From positions 62,001 through 126,000 of the forward strand of contig NZ_BONV01000026.1 in assembly GCF_016862895.1 (NCBI RefSeq): a stretch of DNA of 64,000 bases. The letters run 5' to 3'. This document shows, piece by piece, positions 18,811 through 60,800 of the stretch; the stretch's first letter is position 1; each line of letters begins with the position of its first letter. This DNA is from Planotetraspora kaengkrachanensis. Lineage in GTDB: Bacteria > Actinomycetota > Actinomycetes > Streptosporangiales > Streptosporangiaceae. The notes beneath the pieces were generated by a model. That model worked only from the letters and a program-made list of their open reading frames with translations, was not told the DNA's origin and searched no databases. The translations under genes were made by a program, and so were the position numbers.

Positions 18811-18832
18811 TCCCACGCACTCAGGAGGAGTG

Positions 18833-20302
18833 ATGGTCAATTCCGCCGACGTGAAGGCCTCCGCGGCCCCGGCCGGTGAGGCCACGCCGTACAGGTGGCG
18901 CTGGGTGGCCCTGTTCGTGATCCTGGCCGCGGAGGTCATGGACCTGCTCGACGCCATGGTCACCAACATCGCCGCGCCCACCATGCGCGCCGACCTCGGC
19001 GGCACACCCGCGACGATCCAGTGGCTGGGTGCCGCGTACACGTTGTCGATGGCCGTGGGCCTGATCACCGGAGGCCGACTGGGCGACATCTTCGGGCGCA
19101 AACGGATGTTCCTGATCGGCGCCGCCGGATTCACCTTGGGATCACTGGCCTGCGCCGTCGCGCAGTCGCCCGAGATGCTGATCGGCGCCCGTGTCATGCA
19201 GGGCGTGTTCGGCGCGGTGATGCTTCCCCAGGGTCTGGGGATGATCAAGGAGATGTTCCCGCCGAAGGAGATGCAGGCCGCCTTCGGGATGTTCGGCCCG
19301 ATCATGGGTCTTTCCGCCGTCGGCGGTCCGATCCTGGCGGGCTGGCTGGTCGAGGCCGACTACTTCGGCACCGGCTGGCGCATGATCTTCCTCATCAACC
19401 TGCCCCTCGGCGCCGCCGCGTTGCTCGCCGGGGCGCGGTTCCTCCCCGAGTCGCGTTCGCCGCATCCCCTCAGGCTCGACTTCCCCGGAATCATCCTCGC
19501 CTCGCTCGGCGGATTCCTGGTGATCTACCCGCTGGTCCAGGGGCGCGAGAACGACTGGCCCGCGTGGACGTTCGTCATGCTCGCCGCCTCGGCCGTCGTC
19601 TTCGCGGCGTTCGGCTGGTTCGAGTCGCGCAGGAGCCGTCAGGGCGGCGACCCGCTGATCGTCCCCAGTCTGTTCCGCAAGCGGGCCTTCACGGGCGGCC
19701 TGCTCACGGGCGCCGTCTTCTTCTCGGGCATGGCCGGCTTCATGCTGGTCTTCAACCTCTACACCCAGATCGGGCTGGGCTACTCCTCCCTGAAGGCCGG
19801 TCTCACGATGGTGCCCTGGTCGGCAGGCATGATCGTCGGCTTCGGTATCGCCCAGGCCGTACAGAGGTTCGGGCGCAAGGTGCTGCACGGAGGCACCTTG
19901 ATCATGACTGTCGGCGTGCTCGCCGTGCTGTTCACCGTGAGCTCCGCCGGGCTCGGGGTCACCCCGTGGCAGCTCGTGCCGGCTCTGGTCGTGAGCGGCG
20001 TGGGAATGGGCCTGCTGATGGCCCCCTTCTTCGACATCGTCCTCGCGGGAGTCGAGCAGCACGAGACCGGGTCGGCGTCCGGCACGCTCACGGCCGTCCA
20101 GCAGTTGGGCAACGCCTTCGGTGTGGCGCTGCTCGGCACGATCTTCTTCGACCTGCTGGGCTCCGTTCCCAGCGGCGCGACGTTCGACCACGCCATGAAG
20201 ATCACGTTGTGGGTGGTGGCGGGAATGCTCGTCGTGACGTACGCGGTGGCCTTCCTCCTCCCCAAGCAGGCCAGAGAGGAACCCACCCCATCCCTGGACT
20301 GA
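18833..20302 (+). CDS. MFS drug exporter, DHA2 (EmrB/QacA) family
   Basis: A 489-residue integral membrane protein with about 14 predicted hydrophobic segments, the DHA2 layout. The first helix is WVALFVILAAEVMDLLDAM. The MFS motif A between helices 2 and 3 is GGRLGDIFGRKRMF. The motif C type helix PIMGLSAVGGPILAGWLVE is typical of antiporters. It should export drugs or metabolites using the proton gradient. ATG at 18833 follows AGGAGGAG. Repeat array B begins 9 bp after the stop codon. Confidence 0.92.
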   Translation: MVNSADVKASAAPAGEATPYRWRWVALFVILAAEVMDLLDAMVTNIAAPTMRADLGGTPATIQWLGAAYTLSMAVGLITGGRLGDIFGRKRMFLIGAAGFTLGSLACAVAQSPEMLIGARVMQGVFGAVMLPQGLGMIKEMFPPKEMQAAFGMFGPIMGLSAVGGPILAGWLVEADYFGTGWRMIFLINLPLGAAALLAGARFLPESRSPHPLRLDFPGIILASLGGFLVIYPLVQGRENDWPAWTFVMLAASAVVFAAFGWFESRRSRQGGDPLIVPSLFRKRAFTGGLLTGAVFFSGMAGFMLVFNLYTQIGLGYSSLKAGLTMVPWSAGMIVGFGIAQAVQRFGRKVLHGGTLIMTVGVLAVLFTVSSAGLGVTPWQLVPALVVSGVGMGLLMAPFFDIVLAGVEQHETGSASGTLTAVQQLGNAFGVALLGTIFFDLLGSVPSGATFDHAMKITLWVVAGMLVVTYAVAFLLPKQAREEPTPSLD

Positions 20303-20310
20303 CCGTTGGG

Positions 20311-20522
20311 GTGATCATGCACAGGTTCGTGGTGAGGCCGCCCCACCTGCCAAGCCCCCGCGCGTGATCATGCACAGGTTCGCGCGCGGCGGTCTCGACC
20401 TGCGGATCCTTCGTTCGTGATCATGCACGGATTCGCTGGCGGGTGGGCCTGCCTGGCAAGTCGTCGAGCGTGATCATGCAGAGAGGTCTCTCGCGTGATC
20501 GCGCTCACGGCGTCGGTCGATG
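20311..20522 (+). repeat. 53-bp periodic repeat array B1 (4 units, plus orientation)
   Basis: Motif copies start at 20311, 20364, 20417 and 20470, each exactly 53 bp apart. The first three are intact (GTGATCATGCAC followed by AGGTTCG, AGGTTCG and GGATTCG). The fourth keeps only GTGATCATGCAG. The second box (ACCTG, CGACCTGC, CCTGG) is at unit positions 33-41 in the first three. The array begins 9 bp after the MFS stop and reads in the same direction. The variable parts between motifs are not similar to each other. Confidence 0.88.
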
Positions 20523-20732
20523 TACGGCATGCTCGCCGCCTATGGCTCGACATGCGAATGTGTGCATGATCACGTCGGATGTTTCTGCTGGTCGACCCCA
20601 TTGATCGCGAACCTGTGCATGATCACGAATAAAGACGGGCCAGGCCAGGTCGGCGATCCACGAATGCGTGCATGATCACGCCAGAGGGGTTGGCTGGTCG
20701 GGGGGCCGCACCGCGAACCTATGCATGATCAC
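20521..20732 (-). repeat. 53-bp periodic repeat array B2 (4 units, minus orientation)
   Basis: On the minus strand, four motif copies occupy 20555-20573, 20608-20626, 20661-20679 and 20714-20732, again exactly 53 bp apart. The motifs are followed by ACATTCG, AGGTTCG, GCATTCG and TAGGTTCG variants. The second box CGACCAGC or TGGCCTGG is at positions 33-40 in three of four. The array begins 24 bp beyond the stop of the convergent cofC-like gene and reads in its direction, so B1 and B2 face each other. Confidence 0.88.
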
Positions 20733-20755
20733 GGCAAGGTCGGGAGGGGAGGAGG

Positions 20756-21403
20756 TCAGGAGGGGAGGATGTGGGGGGCGATCCGGGCGGTGGCGGGGCC
20801 CAGGCCGAGGGCCTCGGCCTCCTTGAGATCCTCGACCGTGTCGACGTCCGTCCGTACCGAGGGGATCGCCTCCAGCGTCAGCTCCTTCGCCCCGCCCGAC
20901 AGATGCCTGGCTCTCGACTCGCCCCCGAACCGCGGCTGGAACGCGATCCCCGGCCGCACGCCGTAGAAGGTGGTCCCCACCTCGGCGGCGTCCGGCACAA
21001 AGGACTCGTCGAACTCCAGCGCCGCCGTCAGCACCTTCTCCAGCTCCAGCGGGCGCAACGCCGGCAGATCCGCCTGAAGGGCGCCCACGGCGTCGCCCGC
21101 CGCCAGCCGTACCGCTTCCGCCGCGCCCACGCGTAACGCGGCGTTGAGGCCCCTGTCCGGGTCGTCCACCACATGCGCGCCGAGCGCGGCGAGCCGTTCC
21201 GCAGGCACCGGGTCGGCGGTCACCACCACGACGCGCGCCACGCGGCGACACGCCAGCGCGGCCGCCACCGTGTCGCTCGCGACGGCCACGGCCAGATCGG
21301 CCCGGTACGGCCCGGCCGCTCCGGCCAGCCGGGTCTTGGCCCGGATGAGAGTCTTGACCGGCACCACGATGGACCATCGAGCGAGCTGCATAACCTTAAG
21401 CAT
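20756..21403 (-). CDS. cofC: Phosphoenolpyruvate / 2-phospho-L-lactate guanylyltransferase (F420 biosynthesis)
   Basis: A 215-residue nucleotidyltransferase of the CofC/FbiD family. It activates phosphoenolpyruvate (bacterial FbiD) or 2-phospho-L-lactate (archaeal CofC) with GTP for coenzyme F420 synthesis. It begins WSIVVPVKTLIRAKTRLAG, the nucleotide-binding start of the family. It has VVTADPVP, GLNAALRVG and the metal-site segment GALQADLPALRP. The C-terminus FQPRFGGESRARHL is typical. ATG at 21403 (MLKVMQLARW) is preferred over the internal ATG at 21391, which has no room for a ribosome binding site. It is divergent from plsC. Other F420 genes are outside the window. Confidence 0.88.
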   Translation of the reverse strand: MLKVMQLARWSIVVPVKTLIRAKTRLAGAAGPYRADLAVAVASDTVAAALACRRVARVVVVTADPVPAERLAALGAHVVDDPDRGLNAALRVGAAEAVRLAAGDAVGALQADLPALRPLELEKVLTAALEFDESFVPDAAEVGTTFYGVRPGIAFQPRFGGESRARHLSGGAKELTLEAIPSVRTDVDTVEDLKEAEALGLGPATARIAPHILPS

Positions 21404-27629: not shown

Positions 27630-28607
27630 ATGGGCCGCCACGCGGCAGAACATCCGGCTGGAACGGGACAACCGCATCTCCCGGACGAAGGGGCGAACAC
27701 GGCCGTCCGGTCCGGCGATCTGGCGGAGCGGCGGCAGGAGGGTCACGACACTCACCGGAGCGGGTTCCTCGGCTCCGGGCTGAGCAGCGGCTCCGGATCC
27801 GGCGACGACTCCTCGAAGGGGCTGCGCAGGCTGGCGCTCGTGTCGGGCGTCTCGGTCGTGCTTACCCTGGGTCTGATCATCGGCGGCGTGCAGGTGCTGT
27901 CCGGGCGCACCGAGCTCACCGTCCAGGCGTCGGACTCGAGTTGCGCCGCACCTGGGCAGTGCGACACCGAGCAGACGGCGGACAGCGCCCCCACCGAGGA
28001 CGACCCGGCCGGAGACGGTCCGGCGTCCTCCGCACCCACGGCGTCGGCGGGACGGACGCCGGTCGGCTCACGCAGCGCCACGCCCGGCACCACGCCCAGC
28101 GTCACGGCGGGCACGACCGCCCCGGCCACTCCGGGCACCACCCCGGCCGGGGCGCCGGCCGGCTCGCCCACCCGTGACGTCACGCAGTCGCCCGTGACGA
28201 CGCCGAGCGCCTCCACGCCGGTCGACGCCGCACCTCCTCCCGCTCCGCCTTCGGGCGACGGGGGGTCCGAGCCCGAGGCCACCCAGCCGGCCGCCTCGGA
28301 CCGGGTACGGGTGAGCGTCCGCCTCGACTGGCAGGCCGGAGGCTGGTACGGCGCGAAGGTCACCGTGCACAACGAGGCCGACGACCTTTCCTCCTGGACG
28401 GTCGCCCTGCCCCTCGAAGGCTCGGCGGTGCAGGTGGGGGCGGAGCACTGGGACCAGGACGGGGACACGTTGTCGATCGGCTCCAGCCGGAGTCTGCGCA
28501 GCGGACGCGACACGACGGTGAGCCTCACCTTCCGCGGCCGGTTCCAGGCCCCCGGCGGCTGCACCCTCGCCGGCGGCGAGTGCACCGTCTCCAGCACGAG
28601 CAGGTGA
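27630..28607 (+). CDS. Membrane-anchored protein with Pro/Thr linker and CBM2-like domain
   Basis: A 325-residue protein. A cytoplasmic N-terminus of about 65 residues is followed by one transmembrane segment (about 67-90, [20 protein letters not shown]). Then comes a 120-residue Thr/Pro/Ala/Ser-rich linker and a C-terminal beta domain of about 95 residues. The domain resembles a family 2 carbohydrate-binding module: [33 protein letters not shown], and Trp residues at typical positions. It should sit outside the membrane and may bind polysaccharide. No catalytic domain is present. ATG at 27630 follows AAAGGA. It lies between thiL and thiD with no link to thiamine. Confidence 0.75.
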
Positions 28608-28644
28608 GGCGGGCGGTTCCCGCGGGCCCTGGTTTGATGGGGGC

Positions 28645-32252: not shown

Positions 32253-34424
32253 GTGACAAGGTTCGACGAGCCGCTGAAGAAGGCCCTCGGTGACAAGACG
32301 GCCGCTCCGCTCGAGAGCGCGCTGGGCATCGCCACGGTCGGTGAGCTGCTGCGGCACTATCCGAGGCGGTACGCGCAGCGCGGCGAGCTGACCCCGATCG
32401 CGTCGCTCGAGCACGACGAGCACGCGACCGTCGTCGGCAAGGTGTCGGCCGCGATGCGGCGCCCGATGAAGAACCGGCAGGGCACCTGGCTCGACCTCCA
32501 GGTCACCGACGGCAGGGACAAGCTGCACCTCGCCTTCTTCGGCAAGGGGGCGTACGTCGCGGAGCAGCGGCTGACGCCGGGCACCGAGGCCATGTTCTCC
32601 GGCAAGGTCAACATCTTCGCGAGCGGGAAGACGCGGCGGGTGTCGCTTGCGCACCCCGACTACGAGTCGTTCGACGAGACGCAGGAGACGGCGGAGGAGT
32701 TCGCGACCGCGCCCGTGCCGATCTATCCCTCCGCGCAGGGCCTGGCCACCTGGAAGATCCGCCGGGCCGTGCGCACCGTGATCGACGTGCTGAGCCTGGA
32801 GGACCCGCTGCCCGCCGAGGTGCGCGAGCGGCACGGTCTGTCCCCCCTGGAGGCCGCGCTGCGGCAGATCCACCGGCCGCGCGACATGGGGGAGGTCTCC
32901 AAGGCGAGGCGCCGGCTGAAGTTCGACGAGGCGTTCATCCTGCAGGCGGTGCTGGTGCGCCGCAGGCTCGCCGCTTCTGCCTGGCCGGCCAGGTCGCGGC
33001 CGGGGGCCGACGACGGGCTGCTGAGGGCCTTCGAGGGGCGGCTGCCGTTCCAGCTGACCGAGGGGCAGCTGGCGGTCGGAGAGGAGATCGCCGCGGACCT
33101 CTCGCTGGAACACCCCATGCACCGGCTCCTCCAGGGCGAGGTGGGCGCGGGCAAGACCGTGGTGGCGCTGCGGGCCATGCTGCAGGTCGTCGACTCCGGC
33201 GGCCAGGCCGTGCTGCTCGCCCCCACCGAGGTGCTCGCCCAGCAGCACCACAGGTCGATCGTGAAGATGCTCGGCGACCTCGCCACCGGCGGCATGTTCG
33301 GCGGCACGGCGGTCGCCCTGCTCACCGGCTCGATGGGCGCGGCGGCCCGCAGGAGCGCCCTGCTCGACGCCGCCTCGGGGAACGCCGGCATCGTGGTCGG
33401 CACCCACGCCCTGCTTCAGGAGCACGTCCAGTTCGCCGATCTCGGCCTGGTCGTGGTCGACGAGCAGCACCGGTTCGGCGTGGAGCAGCGCGACGCCCTG
33501 CGTGAGAAGGGCGGCGGGGGCAGGCCGCACGTCCTGGTGATGACCGCGACCCCGATTCCCCGGACGGTCGCGATGACCGTCTTCGGCGATCTGGAGGTCT
33601 CCACGCTCACCCAGCTGCCCTCGGGCAGGGCGCCGATCTCGACGCACGTGGTCCCCGCGGCCGAGAAGCCGCGCTTCCTCGACCGCACGTGGGAGCGGGT
33701 ACGCGAGGAGGTCGGCCTCGGCCGGCAGGCCTACGTCGTCTGCCCCCGCATCGGCGACCAGGAAGGCGACGAGGGGGATCTGGACAAGGAGGGCTCGGAG
33801 GAGGAGCGCAGGCCCCCGCTGGCGGTCCTGGACGTCGCCGAGGCTCTGTCCGCAGGCCCCCTGCAGGGGCTGCGGATCAAGGTGCTGCACGGCAAGCTGC
33901 CGCCCGAGGAGAAGGACGCGGTGATGACCGCGTTCAGCCGCGGGGAGGTCGACGTCCTGGTGGCGACCACGGTCATCGAGGTGGGCGTCGACGTGCCCAA
34001 CTCCTCCGTGATGATCATCATGGACGCCGACAGGTTCGGCGTCTCGCAGCTCCACCAGCTGCGCGGCCGCGTCGGCCGGGGCGGCCTGCCGGGGTTGTGC
34101 CTGCTGGTGAGCGAGGCGCCGGAGGGCACCCCCGCGCGGGCCAGGCTGGACGCGGTGGCGGGCACGCTCGACGGGTTCGAGCTGTCGCGGGTGGACCTCG
34201 AGCAGCGCCGCGAGGGCGACGTCCTCGGCGCCGCGCAGTCCGGCCGGAAGTCGTCGCTGAAGATGTTGCAGCTGCTCAGGGATGAGGACGTGATCGAGGC
34301 CGCCCGGGCGGAGGCGACGACCGTGCTGGTGGGTGATCCCGAGCTGAACTCCCACCCGTCCCTGCGGTCGGAACTCGACGCGATGGTGGCCGACGAGCGG
34401 GCGGAATACCTGGAAAAGGCATGA
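32253..34424 (+). CDS. recG: ATP-dependent DNA helicase RecG
   Basis: A 723-residue superfamily 2 helicase that reverses stalled replication forks and migrates Holliday junctions. An N-terminal OB wedge domain (about 50-150, including VVGKVSAAMRRPMKNRQG) precedes the motor. Walker A is GEVGAGKT (about 295-302). Walker B is the RecG-type DEQHRFGVEQR (about 403). Motif III is MTATPIPRT, and motifs IV-VI include TTVIEVGVDVP and the HQLRGRVGRGG arginine finger. GTG at 32253 lies 37 bp after the DAK2 gene, and the two are probably co-transcribed. A very large hairpin follows about 100 bp after the stop. Confidence 0.96.
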   Translation: MTRFDEPLKKALGDKTAAPLESALGIATVGELLRHYPRRYAQRGELTPIASLEHDEHATVVGKVSAAMRRPMKNRQGTWLDLQVTDGRDKLHLAFFGKGAYVAEQRLTPGTEAMFSGKVNIFASGKTRRVSLAHPDYESFDETQETAEEFATAPVPIYPSAQGLATWKIRRAVRTVIDVLSLEDPLPAEVRERHGLSPLEAALRQIHRPRDMGEVSKARRRLKFDEAFILQAVLVRRRLAASAWPARSRPGADDGLLRAFEGRLPFQLTEGQLAVGEEIAADLSLEHPMHRLLQGEVGAGKTVVALRAMLQVVDSGGQAVLLAPTEVLAQQHHRSIVKMLGDLATGGMFGGTAVALLTGSMGAAARRSALLDAASGNAGIVVGTHALLQEHVQFADLGLVVVDEQHRFGVEQRDALREKGGGGRPHVLVMTATPIPRTVAMTVFGDLEVSTLTQLPSGRAPISTHVVPAAEKPRFLDRTWERVREEVGLGRQAYVVCPRIGDQEGDEGDLDKEGSEEERRPPLAVLDVAEALSAGPLQGLRIKVLHGKLPPEEKDAVMTAFSRGEVDVLVATTVIEVGVDVPNSSVMIIMDADRFGVSQLHQLRGRVGRGGLPGLCLLVSEAPEGTPARARLDAVAGTLDGFELSRVDLEQRREGDVLGAAQSGRKSSLKMLQLLRDEDVIEAARAEATTVLVGDPELNSHPSLRSELDAMVADERAEYLEKA

Positions 34425-34514
34425 ACCCTGCGAGACTCGCTCAAAGGCGGAAGATCTCGGAAAGGCCGCAAATCGCCGTCAGACGCAGACGCGCCGACGG
34501 CGCGGGCGCTTAAA

Positions 34515-39739: not shown

Positions 39740-42700
39740 GTGTATCTGAAGACGCTCACCCTGCGCGGCTTCAAATCCTTCGCCTCCGCCACGTCCCTGC
39801 GTTTCGAGCCCGGCATCACCTGCGTGGTCGGCCCCAACGGCTCAGGGAAGTCCAACGTCGTCGACGCCCTCGCCTGGGTCATGGGCGAGCACAGCGCCAA
39901 ATCGCTGCGCGGCGGCAAGATGGAGGACGTGATCTTCGCGGGCACCTCGAGCCGCCCGCCGCTCGGCCGCGCCGAGGTGACGCTGACCATCGACAACTCC
40001 GATGGCGCGCTGCCGATCGACTACACCGAGGTGACGATCAGCCGGCTGATGTTCCGGTCGGGGCAGAGCGAGTACGCCATCAACGGCGACACCTGCCGCC
40101 TTCTCGACATCCAGGAACTCCTGTCCGACTCCGGCATCGGCCGTGAGATGCACGTCATCGTCGGCCAGGGCCAGCTCGACCAGGTGCTCCACGCCGGCCC
40201 GGAGGAGCGCCGCGCGTTCATCGAGGAGGCCGCCGGCGTCCTCAAGCACCGCAAGCGCAAGGAGAAGGCGCTTCGCAAGCTCGACGCGATGCAGGCCAAC
40301 CTCACCCGTGTGCAGGACCTGGCCACCGAGCTGCGGCGCCAGCTCAAACCGCTGGGACGGCAGGCGGAGATCGCCCGCAAGGCGGCCGTCATCCAGGCCG
40401 ACCTGCGCGACGCCCGGCTGCGCCTGCTCGCCGACGACGTCGTGAACCTGCGCGAGGTCCTGCAGCGCGAGGCCGCAGACGAGGCGGCCGTCATCGCCAG
40501 GCGCACCCAGGTCGAGACCGAACTGGCCGACGGCCAGCGCCGGGAGGCCGAGCTTGAGGCCGCGGAGAACGACGCCCAGCCCCGCCTGAAGGCCGTCCAG
40601 GAGACCTTCTACCGCCTGTCCGCCCTCAGAGAGCGGCTCCGCGGCGTCGAGAGCCTCGCGGCCGAACGGGGACGGCACGCAGCCGACGCCGCCTCGATCG
40701 AACGCCGCGGCCGCGACCCGGAGGACCTCGAGCGTGAGGCCGCCGAGATCCGGGAGCAGGAACAGGCGCTGTCCGACGAGCTCGACGAGGCACGCGACCG
40801 GCTGGAAGCCGCCGTTGAGATCCGCGCCGAGGCCGAGGAGTCCCTCGCCGCCGAGGAACGACGCCTGTCCGTCGCGGCCCGTGCGGCCGCCGACCGGCGC
40901 GAGGCGCTCGCCAGGCTCCGCGGTCAGGTCGAGTCCGCCAGGAGCCGAGCCCGCGCAGCCGGCGACGAGATCGGCCGCCTGACCAAGGCCGTGGAGGACG
41001 CGCACCACCGGGCCGAGCGGGCGCAGGCCGACTGCGACGCGCACGAGCTCGGCGAACCCGCGGCCGACCCGGAGCTGGTCGCCGAGTTCGAGGCTGCCCA
41101 GGAGGGCGTCGACCTCGCCAGGGCCGCCGTCGAGGTGGCGCGGGATGTGGCCGAGCAGGCGGAGACCGCCGTACAGCAGGCCAAGGCCGCCGCCTCCGCG
41201 CCGCGTGAGGCGCTCGGCGCCGCCAAGTCGGCCGTCGGCACGGCACAGGCCGCCGACCAGGAGTCGCAGCGCGCCGTCGCCGCGCTCCGGGCACGGCGCG
41301 AAGCGCTGGAGATGAGCCTCGCCGGAGGGATCGACGGGGCCGCCGCGCTGCTCGGCGCCGACCTTCCCGGCATCCTCGGCCCGATCGCCACCATGCTGAC
41401 CGTCCGGCCGGGGGCCGAGGCGGCCGTCGCCGCGGTCCTCACCGCCGACGCCGTCACCGTCGACTCCCTGAACGCCGCCGTGGCCGCCCTCGAGCACCTG
41501 CGGGTCGCCGAAGGGGGCAGGACGGCGCTGCTGATCGCCGGCGACGGCCAGGCCCTCCCCGCACGGACGGCCGTCGACGGAGCGGAATGGGCCTGTGACC
41601 TGGTCACCGTGCCGGAGGCGCTCAGGGCCACCGTCGACGTCCTGCTGGCGGACGTGGTCGTCGTCGACGATCTCGCCGCCGCGCGGAAGGTCGTCGAGGC
41701 CGACCCGAGCCTGCGGGCCGTCACGCGCTCGGGAGACGTCCTGGGGGCACACTCCGCGCACGGCGGTTCCGGAAGTGTGGCGTCGCCGCTACAGATGCGG
41801 GCCGCGCTCGACGAGGCCGCCGCCGACCTCGCCGCCGCCGAGACGGGTGCGGAGACCCACGCGGAGGCTCTGGAAGAGGCCGTGGCGGCCGAGGAGGAGG
41901 CCCAGCTGGCGGTCGACGCCGCGCAGACGCGCGTCGCCGAGGCGCAAAACGGTCTCACCATGGCGCAGAACGGCATCAACAGCGCACAGACCGGGCTGAA
42001 CGCGGCCCAGTCCGTGCTCGACCGGCTACGCGGACGACAGCGGGACGCCGACCAGAAGGCGGCAGCCGCCGCCAAGGAACTCGCCCGGCTCGAAGCGGCC
42101 GTCAAGGCCGCCCAGGACGAGGCCGCCCGCCTGGCGAGAGCCGTACAGGACGGCGAACAGGCCCGCGAACTGGCCCAGGCGGCGGTCACCGAGCTGGAGG
42201 AGCAGCTGGCCGAGGCCGAATACGCCCAGGAGCTGGAGGCCGAGCCGACCACCGACACGCGTGACGAGCTCGCGACCGGAGCCGGGGTGGCGCGCCAGGC
42301 CGAGATGGAGGCCAGGCTCACCGTCAGGACGTCCGAGGAACGCGTCAGGGGCATCGCCGGCCGTGCCGACGGGCTGATGCGCGCGGCCAGGCGCGAACGG
42401 GACGACCGCGCCCGTGCCGCGGCGCAGCGAGAGCGGCGCCGCAGGCAGGCCGAGGTCGCCGCCGGCGTGGTCGGCGCGGCGCAGATCGCGCTGAAGGCGC
42501 TGGAATCCTCGCTCACACGGGCCGCACAAGAGCGCGACGAGGCGGAGCGGGCACGCGGCGAGATCGACGCCGAGCTCAAGGCGGTGCGGCTCCGCGTCCG
42601 CGCGCTCAGCGCGGAACTCGACACCCTGGTCAACCGCGCACATGGTAGCGAGATGGCCAGGACCGAGCAGCGCCTGCGGCTCGAGCAGATGGAACAGCGG

Positions 42701-52675: not shown

Positions 52676-52821
52676 GTGATCATGCGCGCGCACCTGTGCC
52701 GCGTGATCATGCACGGGTTCGTGAATTCGGCGGCCGGCCTGGGCGGACCCTGCCCGTGATCATGCACGGATTCGGCGAAACGTCAGCCGACCAGCGAAAA
52801 CGCCCCTCGTGATCATGCGCG
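52676..52821 (+). repeat. 53-bp periodic repeat array C (4 units)
   Basis: Plus-strand motif copies start at 52676, 52703, 52756 and 52809. The intact ones (52703, GTGATCATGCACGGGTTCG; 52756, GTGATCATGCACGGATTCG) are 53 bp apart, and 52756 to 52809 is also 53 bp. The outer copies are degenerate (ATGCGCG instead of ATGCACG), and the first spacing is cut to 27 bp. The second box CGGCCTGG or CGACCAGC is at positions 33-40. The array lies between sodC and typA, both on the minus strand, and reads against them. Confidence 0.85.
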
Positions 52822-52930: not shown

Positions 52931-54784
52931 TCAGTTGACGCGCTTGGCCCGCGCGGTCGCGCGGCCGCGGCTGGCCGCGTCGAGCACGACCTTGCGGATG
53001 CGGACGGTCTCCGGCGTGATCTCCACGCACTCGTCGTCACGGATGAACTCCAGCGCCTGCTCCAGCGACAGGGAGCGCGGTGGGATCACCTTCTCCGTCT
53101 CGTCGCTGGTGGACGAGCGCATGTTCGTGAGCTTCTTCTCCTTGGTGATGTTCACGTCCATGTCGTCGGAGCGGGAGTTCTCGCCGACGATCATGCCCTC
53201 GTAGACCTCGGTGGTGGGGGAGACGAACAGCGTCCCGCGCTCCTGCAGGTTCAGCATCGCGAAGGGGGTGACGGGGCCCGACCGGTCGGCGACGAGGGAG
53301 CCGTTGTTGCGGGTCCGCAGCTCGCCGAACCACGGCTCATAGGCGTCGAACACGTGGTGGACCAGGCCGGTTCCCCGGGTCTCGGTGAGGAACTCCGTAC
53401 GGAAGCCGATCAGGCCACGTGCGGGAACCACGAACTCCATGCGGATCCAGCCGGTGCCATGGTTCGTCATGTGCTCCATGCGGCCCTTGCGTACGGCCAG
53501 CAGCTGGGTCACGGCCCCCAGGTACTCCTCGGGGCAGTCGACGGTGAGCCGCTCGACCGGCTCGTGCACCTTTCCGTCGACGAGCTTGGTCACAACCTGG
53601 GGCTTGCCGACGGTCAGCTCGTAGCCCTCGCGGCGCATCTGCTCGACCAGGATGGCCAGCGCGAGTTCGCCACGGCCCTGGACCTCCCAGGTGTCGGGGC
53701 GGTCGGTGGGGATCACGCGCAGTGAGACGTTTCCGACCAGTTCCTTCTCGAGCCGGTCCTTGACCATCCGCGCGGTGACCTTGGAGCCCTTCACCTTGCC
53801 CACGAGCGGGCTGGTGTTGGTGCCGATCGTCATCGAGATCGCCGGCTCGTCGACCGTGATCAGCGGCAGGGGCCGCGGGTCGTCCGGGTCGGCCAGCGTC
53901 TCGCCGATCATGATGTCGGGGATGCCGGCGATGGCGATGATGTCACCGGGCCCGGCCTCCTCGGCGGGCTTGCGCTCCAGGGCGTCGGTCATGAGCAGCT
54001 CGGAGATCTTCACGCGCTGGATCGTGCCGTCGGTACGGCACCAGGCGACCTGCTGTCCCTTCTTGATCGTGCCCTGGTGAACGCGGCAGAGCGCGATTCG
54101 GCCCAGGTAGCTGGAGGCGTCGAGGTTGGTGACGTGCGCCTGGAGCGGGGCGGTCGGGTCGTAGAGGGGAGCCGGGATCGTCTTGGTGATCGTCTCGAAC
54201 AGTGGCTCGAGGTTGTCGGCGTCCGGCATGCCGCCGTCCTGCGGCCGGTTGAGCGAGGCCCGTCCGGCCTTGGCCGAGGCGTAGACGATGGGGAAGTCGA
54301 TCTGCTCCTCGGTGGCGTCGAGGTCGAGGAACAGCTCGTAGACCTCGTCGACGACCTCGGCGATCCGGGCGTCGGGCCGGTCCACCTTGTTGATGCACAA
54401 GATCACCGGGAGCTTGGCGGCGAAGGCCTTGCGCAGCACGAAGCGCGTCTGGGGCAGCGGTCCCTCGGAGGCGTCCACCAGGAGCACCACGCCGTCCACC
54501 ATGGACAGGCCGCGCTCGACCTCTCCGCCGAAGTCGGCGTGGCCAGGGGTGTCGATGATGTTCAGGGTCATTCCGCCGTGCTTGACCGCGGTGTTCTTCG
54601 CGAGAATGGTGATGCCCTTCTCGCGCTCGAGGTCGTTGGAGTCCATCACGCGCTCGTCGACGTCCTGGTTGGCGCGGAACGCCCCAGACTGCCACAACAT
54701 GGCGTCCACCAGCGTGGTCTTGCCATGGTCGACGTGCGCGATGATCGCGATGTTCCGCAGGTCGTCGCGGCTGTTCAAAGGCAT
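52931..54784 (-). CDS. typA: Ribosome-associated GTPase TypA/BipA
   Basis: A 617-residue translational GTPase that assists ribosome assembly and stress responses. G1 is AHVDHGKTT (16-24). Switch I has [12 protein letters not shown]3 is [14 protein letters not shown] and G4 is NKVDRPDA. The C-terminal TypA-specific domain has [17 protein letters not shown] and the late [15 protein letters not shown] segment. The basic tail [14 protein letters not shown] ends the protein. ATG at 54784 is used. Arrays C and D flank this gene and face it from both sides. Confidence 0.95.
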
Positions 54785-55034: not shown

Positions 55035-55203
55035 TGCATGATCGTGGCCGGTGATGCCGCAGGTGGTGGAGATTCTTGCGAATCCGTGCATGATCACGAA
55101 TCGTGTTTGGCCAGGTGGTGGGGGGTTTCTCTGAACCTGTGCATGATCACGCGGAGTGTTTTGGCTGGTCAGGTGGCCTGTGGGCGAATCTGTGCATGAT
55201 CAC
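55035..55203 (-). repeat. 53-bp periodic repeat array D (4 units, minus orientation)
   Basis: Minus-strand copies end at 55045, 55097, 55150 and 55203 in plus coordinates, with spacings of 52, 53 and 53 bp. The last three are intact (CGAATCCGTGCATGATCAC, TGAACCTGTGCATGATCAC and CGAATCTGTGCATGATCAC as read on the plus strand). The first keeps only TGCATGATCG. The second box (CCACCTGG, TGACCAGC) is at positions 32-40. The array lies in the divergent gap between typA and the hydrolase gene. Confidence 0.85.
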
Positions 55204-55264
55204 GGGGATGGGGGTGGGGGGTGGCGTCCGAGATCGGCACAGGTGAGGAAATAAGGTCGGCGGC

Positions 55265-57858: not shown

Positions 57859-60800
57859 TTACGGGAGGGTCGGGTTGAGCAGGTGCTTCATCGAGCGCTT
57901 CACCAGGTCGGTCCGCATGGCCTGGGTGGTCGCCCCTTCGGCGCCGAAGCCGAAGTACACCGTGTCCTTCGTGGTGATGCCGGCGCCGTCCTCGAGTGAC
58001 TGGTCGCTGCGCGTCCAGTCGTTGGGAGCCTCGGCCGAGTCGGCGGGCGGTCCGGCGACCGTCCACCCGCCGAGGTCGCCCTCGAAGGAGGTCTCGGAGA
58101 CGGCCGCGCCGTCAGCCGTGACCGTCGCGTCGTCGAGCCAGACGCCGAGGCCCTGGGTGCCCCAGTCGCTGATGTAGGAGATCGACACCTCGACCTGCTT
58201 GCCCGCGTACGCGGTCAGGTCCATCGACCACTGCTGCCAGCCGTTCGACGAGCCGGAGGCCGCGTGCCACGAACCGGTGGTGCCGGTGGCGGTGCACGAG
58301 GTCGCGCCGTCGAAGGTCTGGTAGTGCGCGGTGGACGGATGGATGGTCGCCCAGCCGCTCGCGCAGCTGTCGCCGGTCTCGTCCGAGGTGTGCCCGTTGG
58401 CGTCGGGCAGGGTCGTCCAGTCGTCCTGGCCCACGGTGTGCGCCTCGACGGTCAGGAAGTCCCAGTTCGGCTCGGTGTTGTACGACGTCCAGAACGACAG
58501 GTTGCCGCTCGTCTTCCCGGTCAGGTCGATCGTGCGGGTCAGCCGCTTCCAGGACACGTCGGCCTGGCCACTCTGCACGTCCCACGCGCCGGTGTGCGGG
58601 CTGAAGGGTGCTCCCGCGCTGTACTGCCACTTCAGCGGGGCCGAGCTGGCGAACTGCGGGAACGTCTTCGGCGACAACACCGAGGAGGTCGTCACGAACG
58701 TCGAGGTGTGGTCCTGGTTGTTCGCCGAGTCCCCGCCGTTGAGCGTGCCGAGGAAGCCGGAGAACGCGCCGCTCGTGCCCTTCAGCGGAAGCGCGTTGCC
58801 GTCGGCGTCCTGGCCGCCGCCGTCCACGAAGGTGTAGGCGCCAAGGTAGTACTGCACGAAGTCGTTGCTCAGCGCGAGACACGGCGGCTTGGTGCCCGTG
58901 GTGCACTCGGGCTGGCCAGGGAAGTCGGGCTCGTACCAGTACGCGCCGTTCACGTTCTGTGGGTACAGCGCGTACTTGCCGGTGGCGAGGAGCTTGCCGC
59001 CCTCGTTGAGGTAGTCGCGGAAGGCCAGTTCGAGCGCCTCCGCGAGGTTCGCGGCGGTGCCGGCGGGCTGGCCGGCCGCGCGCGGGATGATGTCGTCGCC
59101 CGTCTCCCAGACGACGGCCTTGTAGTGGCTGAGCACGCCCAGCGGATGCGGCGCGGTACGGCCGTTCTTGTCGACGTCGTACACGTCGGAGCTGTAGCCG
59201 GCCTTCGACAGCGCCGTGGCGTAGTCGTCGGCGTACTTGGCCTCGGTCACGCCCTGGGCCGGGCTCGCGCCGGTGACGTCCTCCGCCGCGACGACGAGCA
59301 CCTTGCCGCCGATGTCGCCGGCCACCTTGTAGGTGAACGACTCGCTCTTGCCGGTGAGCGAGGTGAACCATACCTTCACGCTGTCGCCGGGCTTGGCGCC
59401 CTTGACCGTGCCGCGGAGCTGGTGGAAGTAGGTGTCGTAACCGTCGCCGTAACGCTCGCCGCCCTTCCACTCGGACGTCGGGGCGACGCGCGGGCTCCCG
59501 CCGTTGATCTGGTACCTGAGCAGGACGGGGCCGAGTCTGCGCTGGGCGTCCACCTGGACGACCTGGTCCCTGCCGTAGCTCACGCCGAACTTGTCGACGA
59601 CGAAGTCGGGGACGGTGTTGCCGAGGTGGCTGACCGGCTTGGTCAGGTTCGGCGCCGACTTGATGATGTCGAGCGCGAACGGCAGTTGCTTCTCGAACTC
59701 GGCATGGACCAGCGCCTCGTCGTCGGGGAAGACGAAGCCGCAGCCCTCACACCCCTCCTCGAGCTCCGGCGTCCACGCCAGCGTGCCGTACTTCGAGTGG
59801 GCGTGGTCGGTGGTCTCGCCGTTGGTCGTGTACAGCTCGGCGCCCACGCCGGGGTCGAAGCCGGGGACCGCCGGGTTCTCGTCCGTCCCGGTCAGAGCCA
59901 GGTAGATCGGGTCGTCGGGGGTCTTGGTGGCGACCTGCCAGCCCTGGGGGTAGAGCAGCAGCGGGCCGTAGGAGTGGTAGTTGACCTGGGCCTTGGGCCG
60001 CAGCCGCTTGAGCAGCCCGTCCATGGCCCTGGTCTCCGGCTCGGAGGCCGGCGCCTTGCCGCGGTAGGTCTCGCTGCTGAAGACGCTGGACGAGCCCTCC
60101 TCGTCGTAGCCCCACTTGGTCGGGTAGTTCCGGTTGGGGTCGACGCCGTCGTTCCCGGTGATCTCCCCGTCGCCGTCGTTGTCGCGCAGGTTCTTGCGCC
60201 ACAGGCGGTTGCCCTCGGTGAAGGTGAAGTCGTAGCCGTCCGGGTTGGCCACCGGGACGAACCACACCTCGGTCGAGGACAGCAGCTTGCCGATCTCCGG
60301 CTTGGACTTGTTGGCCACGAGGTACTTCAGCAGGCGCATGTCGACCTCGGTGGAGATCCACTCACGCGCGTGCTGGGTCGCGGAGTAGAGCACCGCCGGC
60401 CTGGCCCCGTCCGGCAGGACCCGGGCGAGCTTGGTCAGCTTGACGGCGAGGATGTCCTTGCCCTGAACGGTCTTGCCGATCGACTGGAGCTTCGCGATGT
60501 CCTTGTTGGCGTCGGCGATGGCGCGGAGCTGGTCGGCGATGCCGCCCTTCTGCGAGTAGGAACGCCACACGGTGTACCCGCCGGCGGCCTGGGCCCGGGC
60601 GGCCTGCGACTGCGTCTGGCCCTGGGGGTTGCGGACGGGCTGCGGCCGGTAGCCGAGGATCTGCAGCTTCTTCAGCTCGGCGGGGGTGGCGGTGAGCTCG
60701 ATGTGCTCCGTGGCGCCCTCGGCCGTCTGCTGAACGATGTCGAAGCCCTTCTGGGCCAGCGTGCCGCCGGTCCCGGCTGGGCTGTCCAGCTCGTAAAGCT

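Follow-up and report, generated by a model that had tools for sequence, protein, structure and literature searches.

Facing arrays of a 53-bp repeat in Planotetraspora kaengkrachanensis: a dispersed DNA element that probably belongs to an AbiEi-nuclease-like gene

Results

A pair of facing arrays between two converging genes

Two blocks of one short motif lie head-on between converging genes of the soil actinobacterium Planotetraspora kaengkrachanensis, which raises the question of what these repeats are and what might read them. The window (the whole stretch of 64,000 nucleotides analysed here) places the element between an MFS transporter gene (18830-20302, plus strand; Pfam MFS_1, 3.5e-49) and cofC (20756-21403, minus strand; TIGR03552, 1e-43), both of which are neighbours outside it. 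By motif scan, block B1 (20310-20480, plus strand) consists of full copies at 20310, 20363 and 20416 and a terminal, truncated copy reduced to its core at 20469-20480, which retains CGTGATCATGCA and is divergent afterwards. Block B2 (20555-20733, minus strand) faces it with copies at 20555, 20608, 20661 and 20714. The centre that separates the blocks (20481-20554, assigned to no strand) contains a degenerate core-like stretch at 20492-20507. The outermost GTGATCATGCA cores sit 8 bp from the MFS stop codon and 23 bp from the cofC stop codon, and the facing arms are partly complementary (73% over 131 nt). The original prediction had described eight copies, four on each strand, at a constant spacing; both the coordinates and the exact 53-bp spacing within B1 and B2 were confirmed.

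With three mismatches allowed, a scan of the whole window yields 15 matches where 0.03 would be expected, and these fall in four places: 404-518, 20310-20733, 52702-52774 and 55079-55204. The first of these is a further plus-strand array of the same motif (404-518), with copies at 404 (degenerate), 446 and 499. Another plus-strand array spans 52676-52819 with four cores, and a minus-strand array of three copies 53 bp apart (55079-55204) faces it across typA. The typA/bipA gene (52931-54784; typA by Pfam) is bracketed by this facing pair, whose centre is unusually wide at about 2.3 kb.

The motif is dispersed through the genome in phased, inward-facing arrays

The 8.77-Mb genome of P. kaengkrachanensis (G000) holds 353 + 375 = 728 copies of the motif, against 1 + 0 for a reversed-pattern control. 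Since the motif is found genome-wide, the MFS/cofC site is not special; the facing pair there is one among many copies of a DNA element that is dispersed through the genome. Four other Planotetraspora genomes carry 764, 303, 787 and 780 copies, and in a tandem search of named genomes all of the matches listed come from three species, Planotetraspora silvatica, P. mira and P. phitsanulokensis.

Spacing was counted in stretches chosen without regard to motif or spacing, in place of a count of 385/401 that rests largely on loci fetched by the 53-bp pattern. The distance from one core to the next is exactly 53 bp in 48/54 cases in the P. kaengkrachanensis genome, 53/58 in G001, 7/7 in G002 and 11/12 in the window; in G062 the spacing is 53 bp in 40/72 and 52 bp in 17/72. 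A 20-mer scattered without 53-bp phasing, which the original prediction had named as evidence against itself, was not what the genome-wide check found. At two places on contig C1 of P. kaengkrachanensis (28554-28633 and 282440-282470) the outermost copies have a spacing of 30 bp and not of 53 bp, which looks like the outcome of local duplication.

The consensus of 385 units, mostly from loci fetched by the 53-bp pattern, has a near-invariant GTGATCATGCA at positions 2-12, followed by C-RGRTTCG at 13-20, a second box (box B) at 33-41 and a weaker AC at 46-47. Box B, which had been glimpsed as a weak feature of the window copies, reads C-Y-G-A-C-C-W-G-C. The GGTTCG within the consensus has some likeness to a tRNA T-arm, an idea that was dropped because other lineages alter it.

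The placement of arrays relative to genes was surveyed with a simple gene caller in seven stretches, namely about 400 kb each of G000, G001, G002, G062, G406 and G054, plus the window. Arrays of at least two cores occupy 25/345 convergent, 55/1487 codirectional and 4/341 divergent gaps, and stand mostly at the 3′ ends of genes. The first copy of sense arrays lies a median 5-25 bp past the stop codon of the upstream gene. Arrays in codirectional gaps run in both orientations, and for that reason a sense-oriented 3′UTR element was rejected. Where two arrays neighbour each other within 400 bp, they face inward (plus, then minus) in 29/29 pairs. Some facing arms in G186 join in a palindrome, such as GTGATCATGCAATTGCATGATCAC, and cores in G053 (of the g50 genus) occur as outward doublets instead of inward arrays.

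Reach of the core across lineages

The core CGTGATCATGCA is also present outside the genus, both within the family and in three further families, with tails and spacings specific to each lineage. Of 341 genomes of the family, 30 have it in tandem at 53 bp, and 13 of these reach at least ten pairs (five of the same genus, g1; G062; five of g65; two of g34). A draw of 150 genomes of the order, four of them from other families, contained 13 with the tandem core, all of the same family. In a draw of 396 genomes of the phylum there were five matches, P. kaengkrachanensis included, and besides it only G406, with 413 exact cores against 0 in the control, looks real. A laxer core search of 394 genomes of the class gave seven matches, and three other families account for five of these. 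Spacing is 41 bp in 8/9 cases in G054, variable in G406 with 37 bp commonest (6/22), and 34-35 bp in G812 among the matches listed. At G762:C9:47884-48115, CGTGATCATGCA repeats head to tail every 22 bp (CGTGATCATGCAGCCGCTCGGC), an arrangement that differs from the phased arrays of other places.

Arrays bracket a gene for an AbiEi-nuclease-like protein

The gene was found through two genomes, G937 (locus L335) and G853 (L336), where a single gene stands between facing arrays; its products in the two genomes are 64% identical. P. kaengkrachanensis has a single such gene (G000:C58, about 39897-40865; L337), bracketed by the same inward-facing 53-bp arrays as are found elsewhere in its genome. Inward arrays on both sides are likewise present in G186 (L338), G001 (L354), G004 (L353), G406 (L350) and G812 (L351), which makes eight genomes (three Planotetraspora, one of another genus, and members of three other families), each with its own lineage's kind of array. 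Even the aberrant repeat tail of G004 (GAAGTTCGG) flanks the gene there. In G092 (L352) palindromes of the genus type stand on both sides, and in G003 an array flanks the gene on the one side that was covered. The background frequency of bracketing is 5/1738 genes of at least 500 bp in the seven stretches. Four of these, a MobA-like, an FdhD-like and an ABC ATPase gene (all named by eye) and typA (by Pfam), had been considered as cargo and were dropped as chance; the fifth lies in G062 at 349761-351980.

The Planotetraspora-type protein (P0001) matches MTES_1575 at residues 224-287 with 41.6 bits (cut-off 38.2), and AbiEi_4 (2-36) and AbiEi_1 (65-181) below their cut-offs. In a second protein, P0002, AbiEi_1 scores 25.8, above the cut-off of 22.2. 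PADLOC gives a match to AbiEi (1.6e-16), and in some members the C-terminal domain matches DUF559. Judged by these matches, the gene encodes an AbiEi-type winged-helix start and an AbiEi C-terminal-type region, followed by a putative PD-(D/E)XK-type domain (MTES_1575/DUF559). An alignment, read like the protein tree without the Arthrobacter L343 protein, has the pattern D...EYDG..H...D..R largely kept in the repeat-bracketed proteins. In two Tsukamurella relatives that have no repeats beside the gene the stretch reads EFDG..K, and a Nonomuraea relative that is also repeat-less has EYDG. The family match and the conserved D...ExD...H pattern make the protein a predicted PD-(D/E)XK endonuclease. 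Support in the tree is low between its two main groups. Transposase families, Y1 transposase included, gave no match to the bracketed protein at E<=0.1, and a sequence search of the PDB returned protocadherins (0.085) and an ‘endonuclease-like protein’ (3hrl, 0.82), neither of them convincing.

The immediate neighbours of the gene in L337 and L338 encode a cytochrome P450 and a GDP-mannose dehydratase; neither of these two is the AbiEii nucleotidyltransferase toxin that accompanies AbiEi in AbiE. In P. kaengkrachanensis, G186 and G853 the bracketed gene directly follows the cytochrome P450 gene. Because this P450 neighbour is common to two families, the gene may be an old, vertical inheritance.

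Co-occurrence of gene and arrays, and its exceptions

A profile built from G853 and G937 was run over 31 genomes with most or all candidates scored, and 18 of the 31 gave a match, some of them through paralogues. Homologues were found in G000, G001, G003 and G004, with no match in G002; within g65 they were found in G186, G215 and G120 and were absent from G193, G199 and ten array-less genomes. A second profile, built from G000 and G186, was run over 338 family genomes with at most six candidates scored per genome. Near-full-length close orthologues (E<=1e-168) appeared in seven of the 338, the two profile members included, and all seven fall among the 13 genomes with at least ten tandem pairs. 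Within g1, the genomes with the gene have 633, 706, 718 and 731 tandem pairs and the one without it, G002, has 194. Within g65 the corresponding numbers are 62, 69 and 180 with the gene and 43 and 10 without, ten genomes having neither gene nor arrays (Fisher 0.022, for a small set of genomes that are not independent).

G062 is an exception, with 532 tandem pairs and only a distant paralogue (1.5e-26) that carries different repeats. The flanks of the gene locus lie 1809 bp apart in this genome, which, having many arrays, no close orthologue found and no comparator genome, is the main unexplained case. The paralogous AbiEi-nuclease gene (L339, G062:C71) itself has a hairpin repeat of another kind on either side; this repeat contains CGATCATGACGATAGTGCTG and has GATCATG in common with the window core. 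Close orthologues were also not found in G037 (52 pairs), G193 (43) and G199 (10), where the flanks of the gene locus are 73, 5958 and 1418 bp apart; loss of the gene covers these three only if arrays outlive it. In G086 (239 pairs) the profile match extends over residues 1-116 only (2.1e-47). Conversely, G028 has a 1.5e-96 homologue and no 53-bp arrays, and many genera have homologues at 1e-60 to 1e-87 without them.

Decay of arrays where the gene is missing

G002 is a Planotetraspora genome in which profile searches gave no match to the gene. At the gene locus its flanks are 95% identical to those of P. kaengkrachanensis but stand 83 bp apart instead of 1565, and the 83-bp stretch contains one unit, read as decayed. 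This decayed unit between the matching flanks argues that gene and arrays were once present at the locus and have since been lost.

P. kaengkrachanensis and G001 are about 90% identical and share most arrays, with mismatches at 16/495 core and 480/1125 variable positions. The comparison with G002 gives 34/228 core and 166/524 variable mismatches, a different contrast between core and variable positions (Fisher 4.5e-8), and G002 is the closer of the two to P. kaengkrachanensis at nearly all flanks. Units are absent or gapped in 35/56 cases in G002 and 16/61 in G001, in automatic unit alignments of which some are possibly out of register. By these alignments, the arrays of G002 are judged to be shortened and decaying. 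Neither P. kaengkrachanensis nor G002 has a match for one array pair of G001, at 60171-60491; this pair could be a gain or a loss, since its flanks are not continuous. The three-genome comparison yielded no clear new insertion.

Relatives with repeats of their own

Nine records of a plasmid collection hold relatives of the gene at ten places, nine of which were fetched. Strong inverted repeats stand on both sides of the gene in six of these and do not in the other three, a strong repeat being one with a score of at least 17, a threshold chosen after the scores were known. With P. kaengkrachanensis, G186, G062, G853, G937 and one phage record added, 11/15 are bracketed, or 9/13 without two selected genes, against 2/400 control genes. 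The bracket tests failed in L340, L346 and L347, and the phage record scored 15. Four of the flanking repeats were tested within the plasmid collection, and all are multicopy, each in one organism. Those of Tsukamurella tyrosinosolvens occur at 13 and 20 places and those of two Arthrobacter strains at 12 and 25, counts that include the copies beside the gene, possibly a large part of the 12. In the Nonomuraea gerenzanensis relative (L340) the match leaves out the DNA-binding part at the N-terminus, and its flanks show no strong repeats. Homologue hits that begin at about residue 45 occur often in the family, and such N-terminally short forms are perhaps retired ones. Among viral contigs, 52 pattern matches included no relative, and phages gave the one weak record.

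Discussion

There are several possible explanations for a repeat of this kind. The most improbable is a transcribed unit that acts through RNA structure. The partial complementarity of the facing arms is in its favor, as are GC-rich hairpins that the eye can pick out in some of the centres, and the original prediction had seen a hint of RNA structure in the variable parts. An analysis of base dependences in 268 non-redundant units of 73 nt each tells against it: 28 of the 30 strongest join columns 1-3 apart, and the other two (41/52 and 35/45) are barely above the permutation maximum of 0.071, with little or no pairing excess. The covariation check of aligned units proposed earlier thus found no RNA helix in these units (top pairing excess z 2.3, columns at least 4 apart), and an Rfam search of window positions 20200-20900 gave no match up to E=1. 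Together these contradict RNA structure within the unit, and it is also hard to square with an RNA repeat that spacing is near-constant while sequence varies freely. Short-range covariation without an RNA helix makes the unit look like DNA that is read by a protein. The choice left by the original prediction, between an array bound by one protein and a repeated transcribed unit, leans to the former, for which 53-bp phasing and short-range dependences both speak.

Protein-bound DNA at the 3′ ends of genes could also be a roadblock terminator, with arrays that stop or insulate transcription for the benefit of the host, bound by the nuclease-like or another protein, and with no copying. We consider this unlikely, if the least improbable of the alternatives. 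The distribution over convergent, codirectional and divergent gaps fits it, as do the closeness of sense arrays to stop codons and the strong constraint on each site while the gene is present. Avoidance of promoters would, however, be expected of any intergenic repeat, arrays of both orientations in codirectional gaps mean that polarity to transcription is not kept, and a nuclease-type domain with conserved acidic residues is left unexplained. Short MITE-like transposon copies, whose ends would be arrays of transposase sites and which would move by cut and paste, are less probable again. Facing ends with several sites each would suit such elements, and so would an autonomous-looking copy with one gene inside, positions that are empty in one genome (for example G002 against P. 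kaengkrachanensis 34005-34500) and the G001 pair that lacks a counterpart. Yet most arrays occupy shared positions in P. kaengkrachanensis and G001, where they evolve unit by unit, no target duplication was noticed in six alignments, the empty gene locus of G002 bears the scar of a loss, and the bracketed protein lacks a transposase match.

What probably explains the observations better is that the facing-array elements belong to the AbiEi-nuclease-like gene and form a population of sequences comparable to REPIN/RAYT, in which the enzyme is an unrelated one; the inferred parts of this account are that the protein binds, cuts and copies. The AbiEi part would read CGTGATCATGCA plus the tail of its lineage, and proteins would stack every five helical turns on one face of the DNA. 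Two facing arrays would then bring nuclease domains together at the centre, and cutting followed by templated repair would copy or renew arrays at other places. So long as a genome keeps the gene, the arrays would persist as a sequence population, much as REPINs do alongside RAYT. At the 3′ ends of genes there may be a side effect or a benefit to the host, such as insulation between converging genes. The original prediction is partly borne out by this account; it missed that the facing pair is genome-wide and that matching repeats surround a nuclease gene elsewhere. More tentatively, and with somewhat less than even confidence, we propose that Actinomycetota have a class of nuclease-driven repeat populations, in which each AbiEi-nuclease fusion copies or renews a dispersed repeat of its own through cutting and templated repair. 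The repeats would evolve together with the part of the protein that reads DNA, and in Streptosporangiaceae the sites would have turned into helically phased arrays on which a protein filament is held at the ends of genes.

REPs are single palindromes with GTAG, and the RAYT gene is flanked by its own repeats. The repeats described here are similarly dispersed, intergenic and vertically kept, and a single-copy enzyme gene is flanked, on both sides in eight genomes, by the dispersed repeats of its genome. They are likewise fewer where the gene is missing (g1 and g65, and at unit level in G002), with G062 as an exception. For Escherichia coli, one study reports fewer REPINs where the RAYT gene is missing (PMC8049555). 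The enzyme here differs from RAYT in being of AbiEi plus MTES_1575 type, with no match to the tyrosine HUH (Y1) transposase at E<=0.1, and the repeats of Planotetraspora are tandem, phased 53-bp direct arrays that face each other, unlike the palindromes of REPINs. The doublets of g50 and the hairpin repeats around other relatives of the gene are nearer to the REPIN form. The system works like REPIN-RAYT and is not a member of it, as both the enzyme and the form of the repeat differ.

Its components have other relatives. The N-terminal two thirds of the protein match models of AbiEi, the antitoxin and repressor of a type IV toxin-antitoxin system, but are fused here to a nuclease-type domain. 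That C-terminal domain, with its above-cut-off match to MTES_1575, resembles the DUF559/MTES_1575 restriction-endonuclease-like family, with Vsr-like and EDxHD homing nucleases as further comparisons; no DUF559/MTES_1575 protein is known to us that has dispersed repeats of its own. The BIME arrays that enterobacteria carry and the tandem Sal-box terminators of rDNA also stand at the 3′ ends of genes, like the arrays here, and differ from the 53-bp arrays in motif, spacing and bound factor. CRISPR arrays are unlike them too, since here the repeats vary, the intervals keep box B and the arrays are many. Among the matches listed, searches of open-access papers yielded no description of the motif, of such repeats at convergent genes or in Planotetraspora, of a REPIN/RAYT counterpart in actinobacteria, or of an AbiEi/DUF559 enzyme with repeats. 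The arrays have the look of sites, dispersed through the genome, of a system that pairs repeats with a nuclease, and we found no earlier description of one there.

If the preferred reading, a repeat population tied to the AbiEi-nuclease-like gene, is true, it would be a second and unrelated solution to the role of REPIN/RAYT, in which the repeats of a genome are under the care of one enzyme. It would also provide a hypothesis of function for the solitary ‘DUF559 / AbiEi’ proteins of actinobacteria, and unassigned repeats in actinobacterial genomes may be explained by it. Genomes that kept the gene, set against those that lost it, are a natural experiment on the persistence of repeats.
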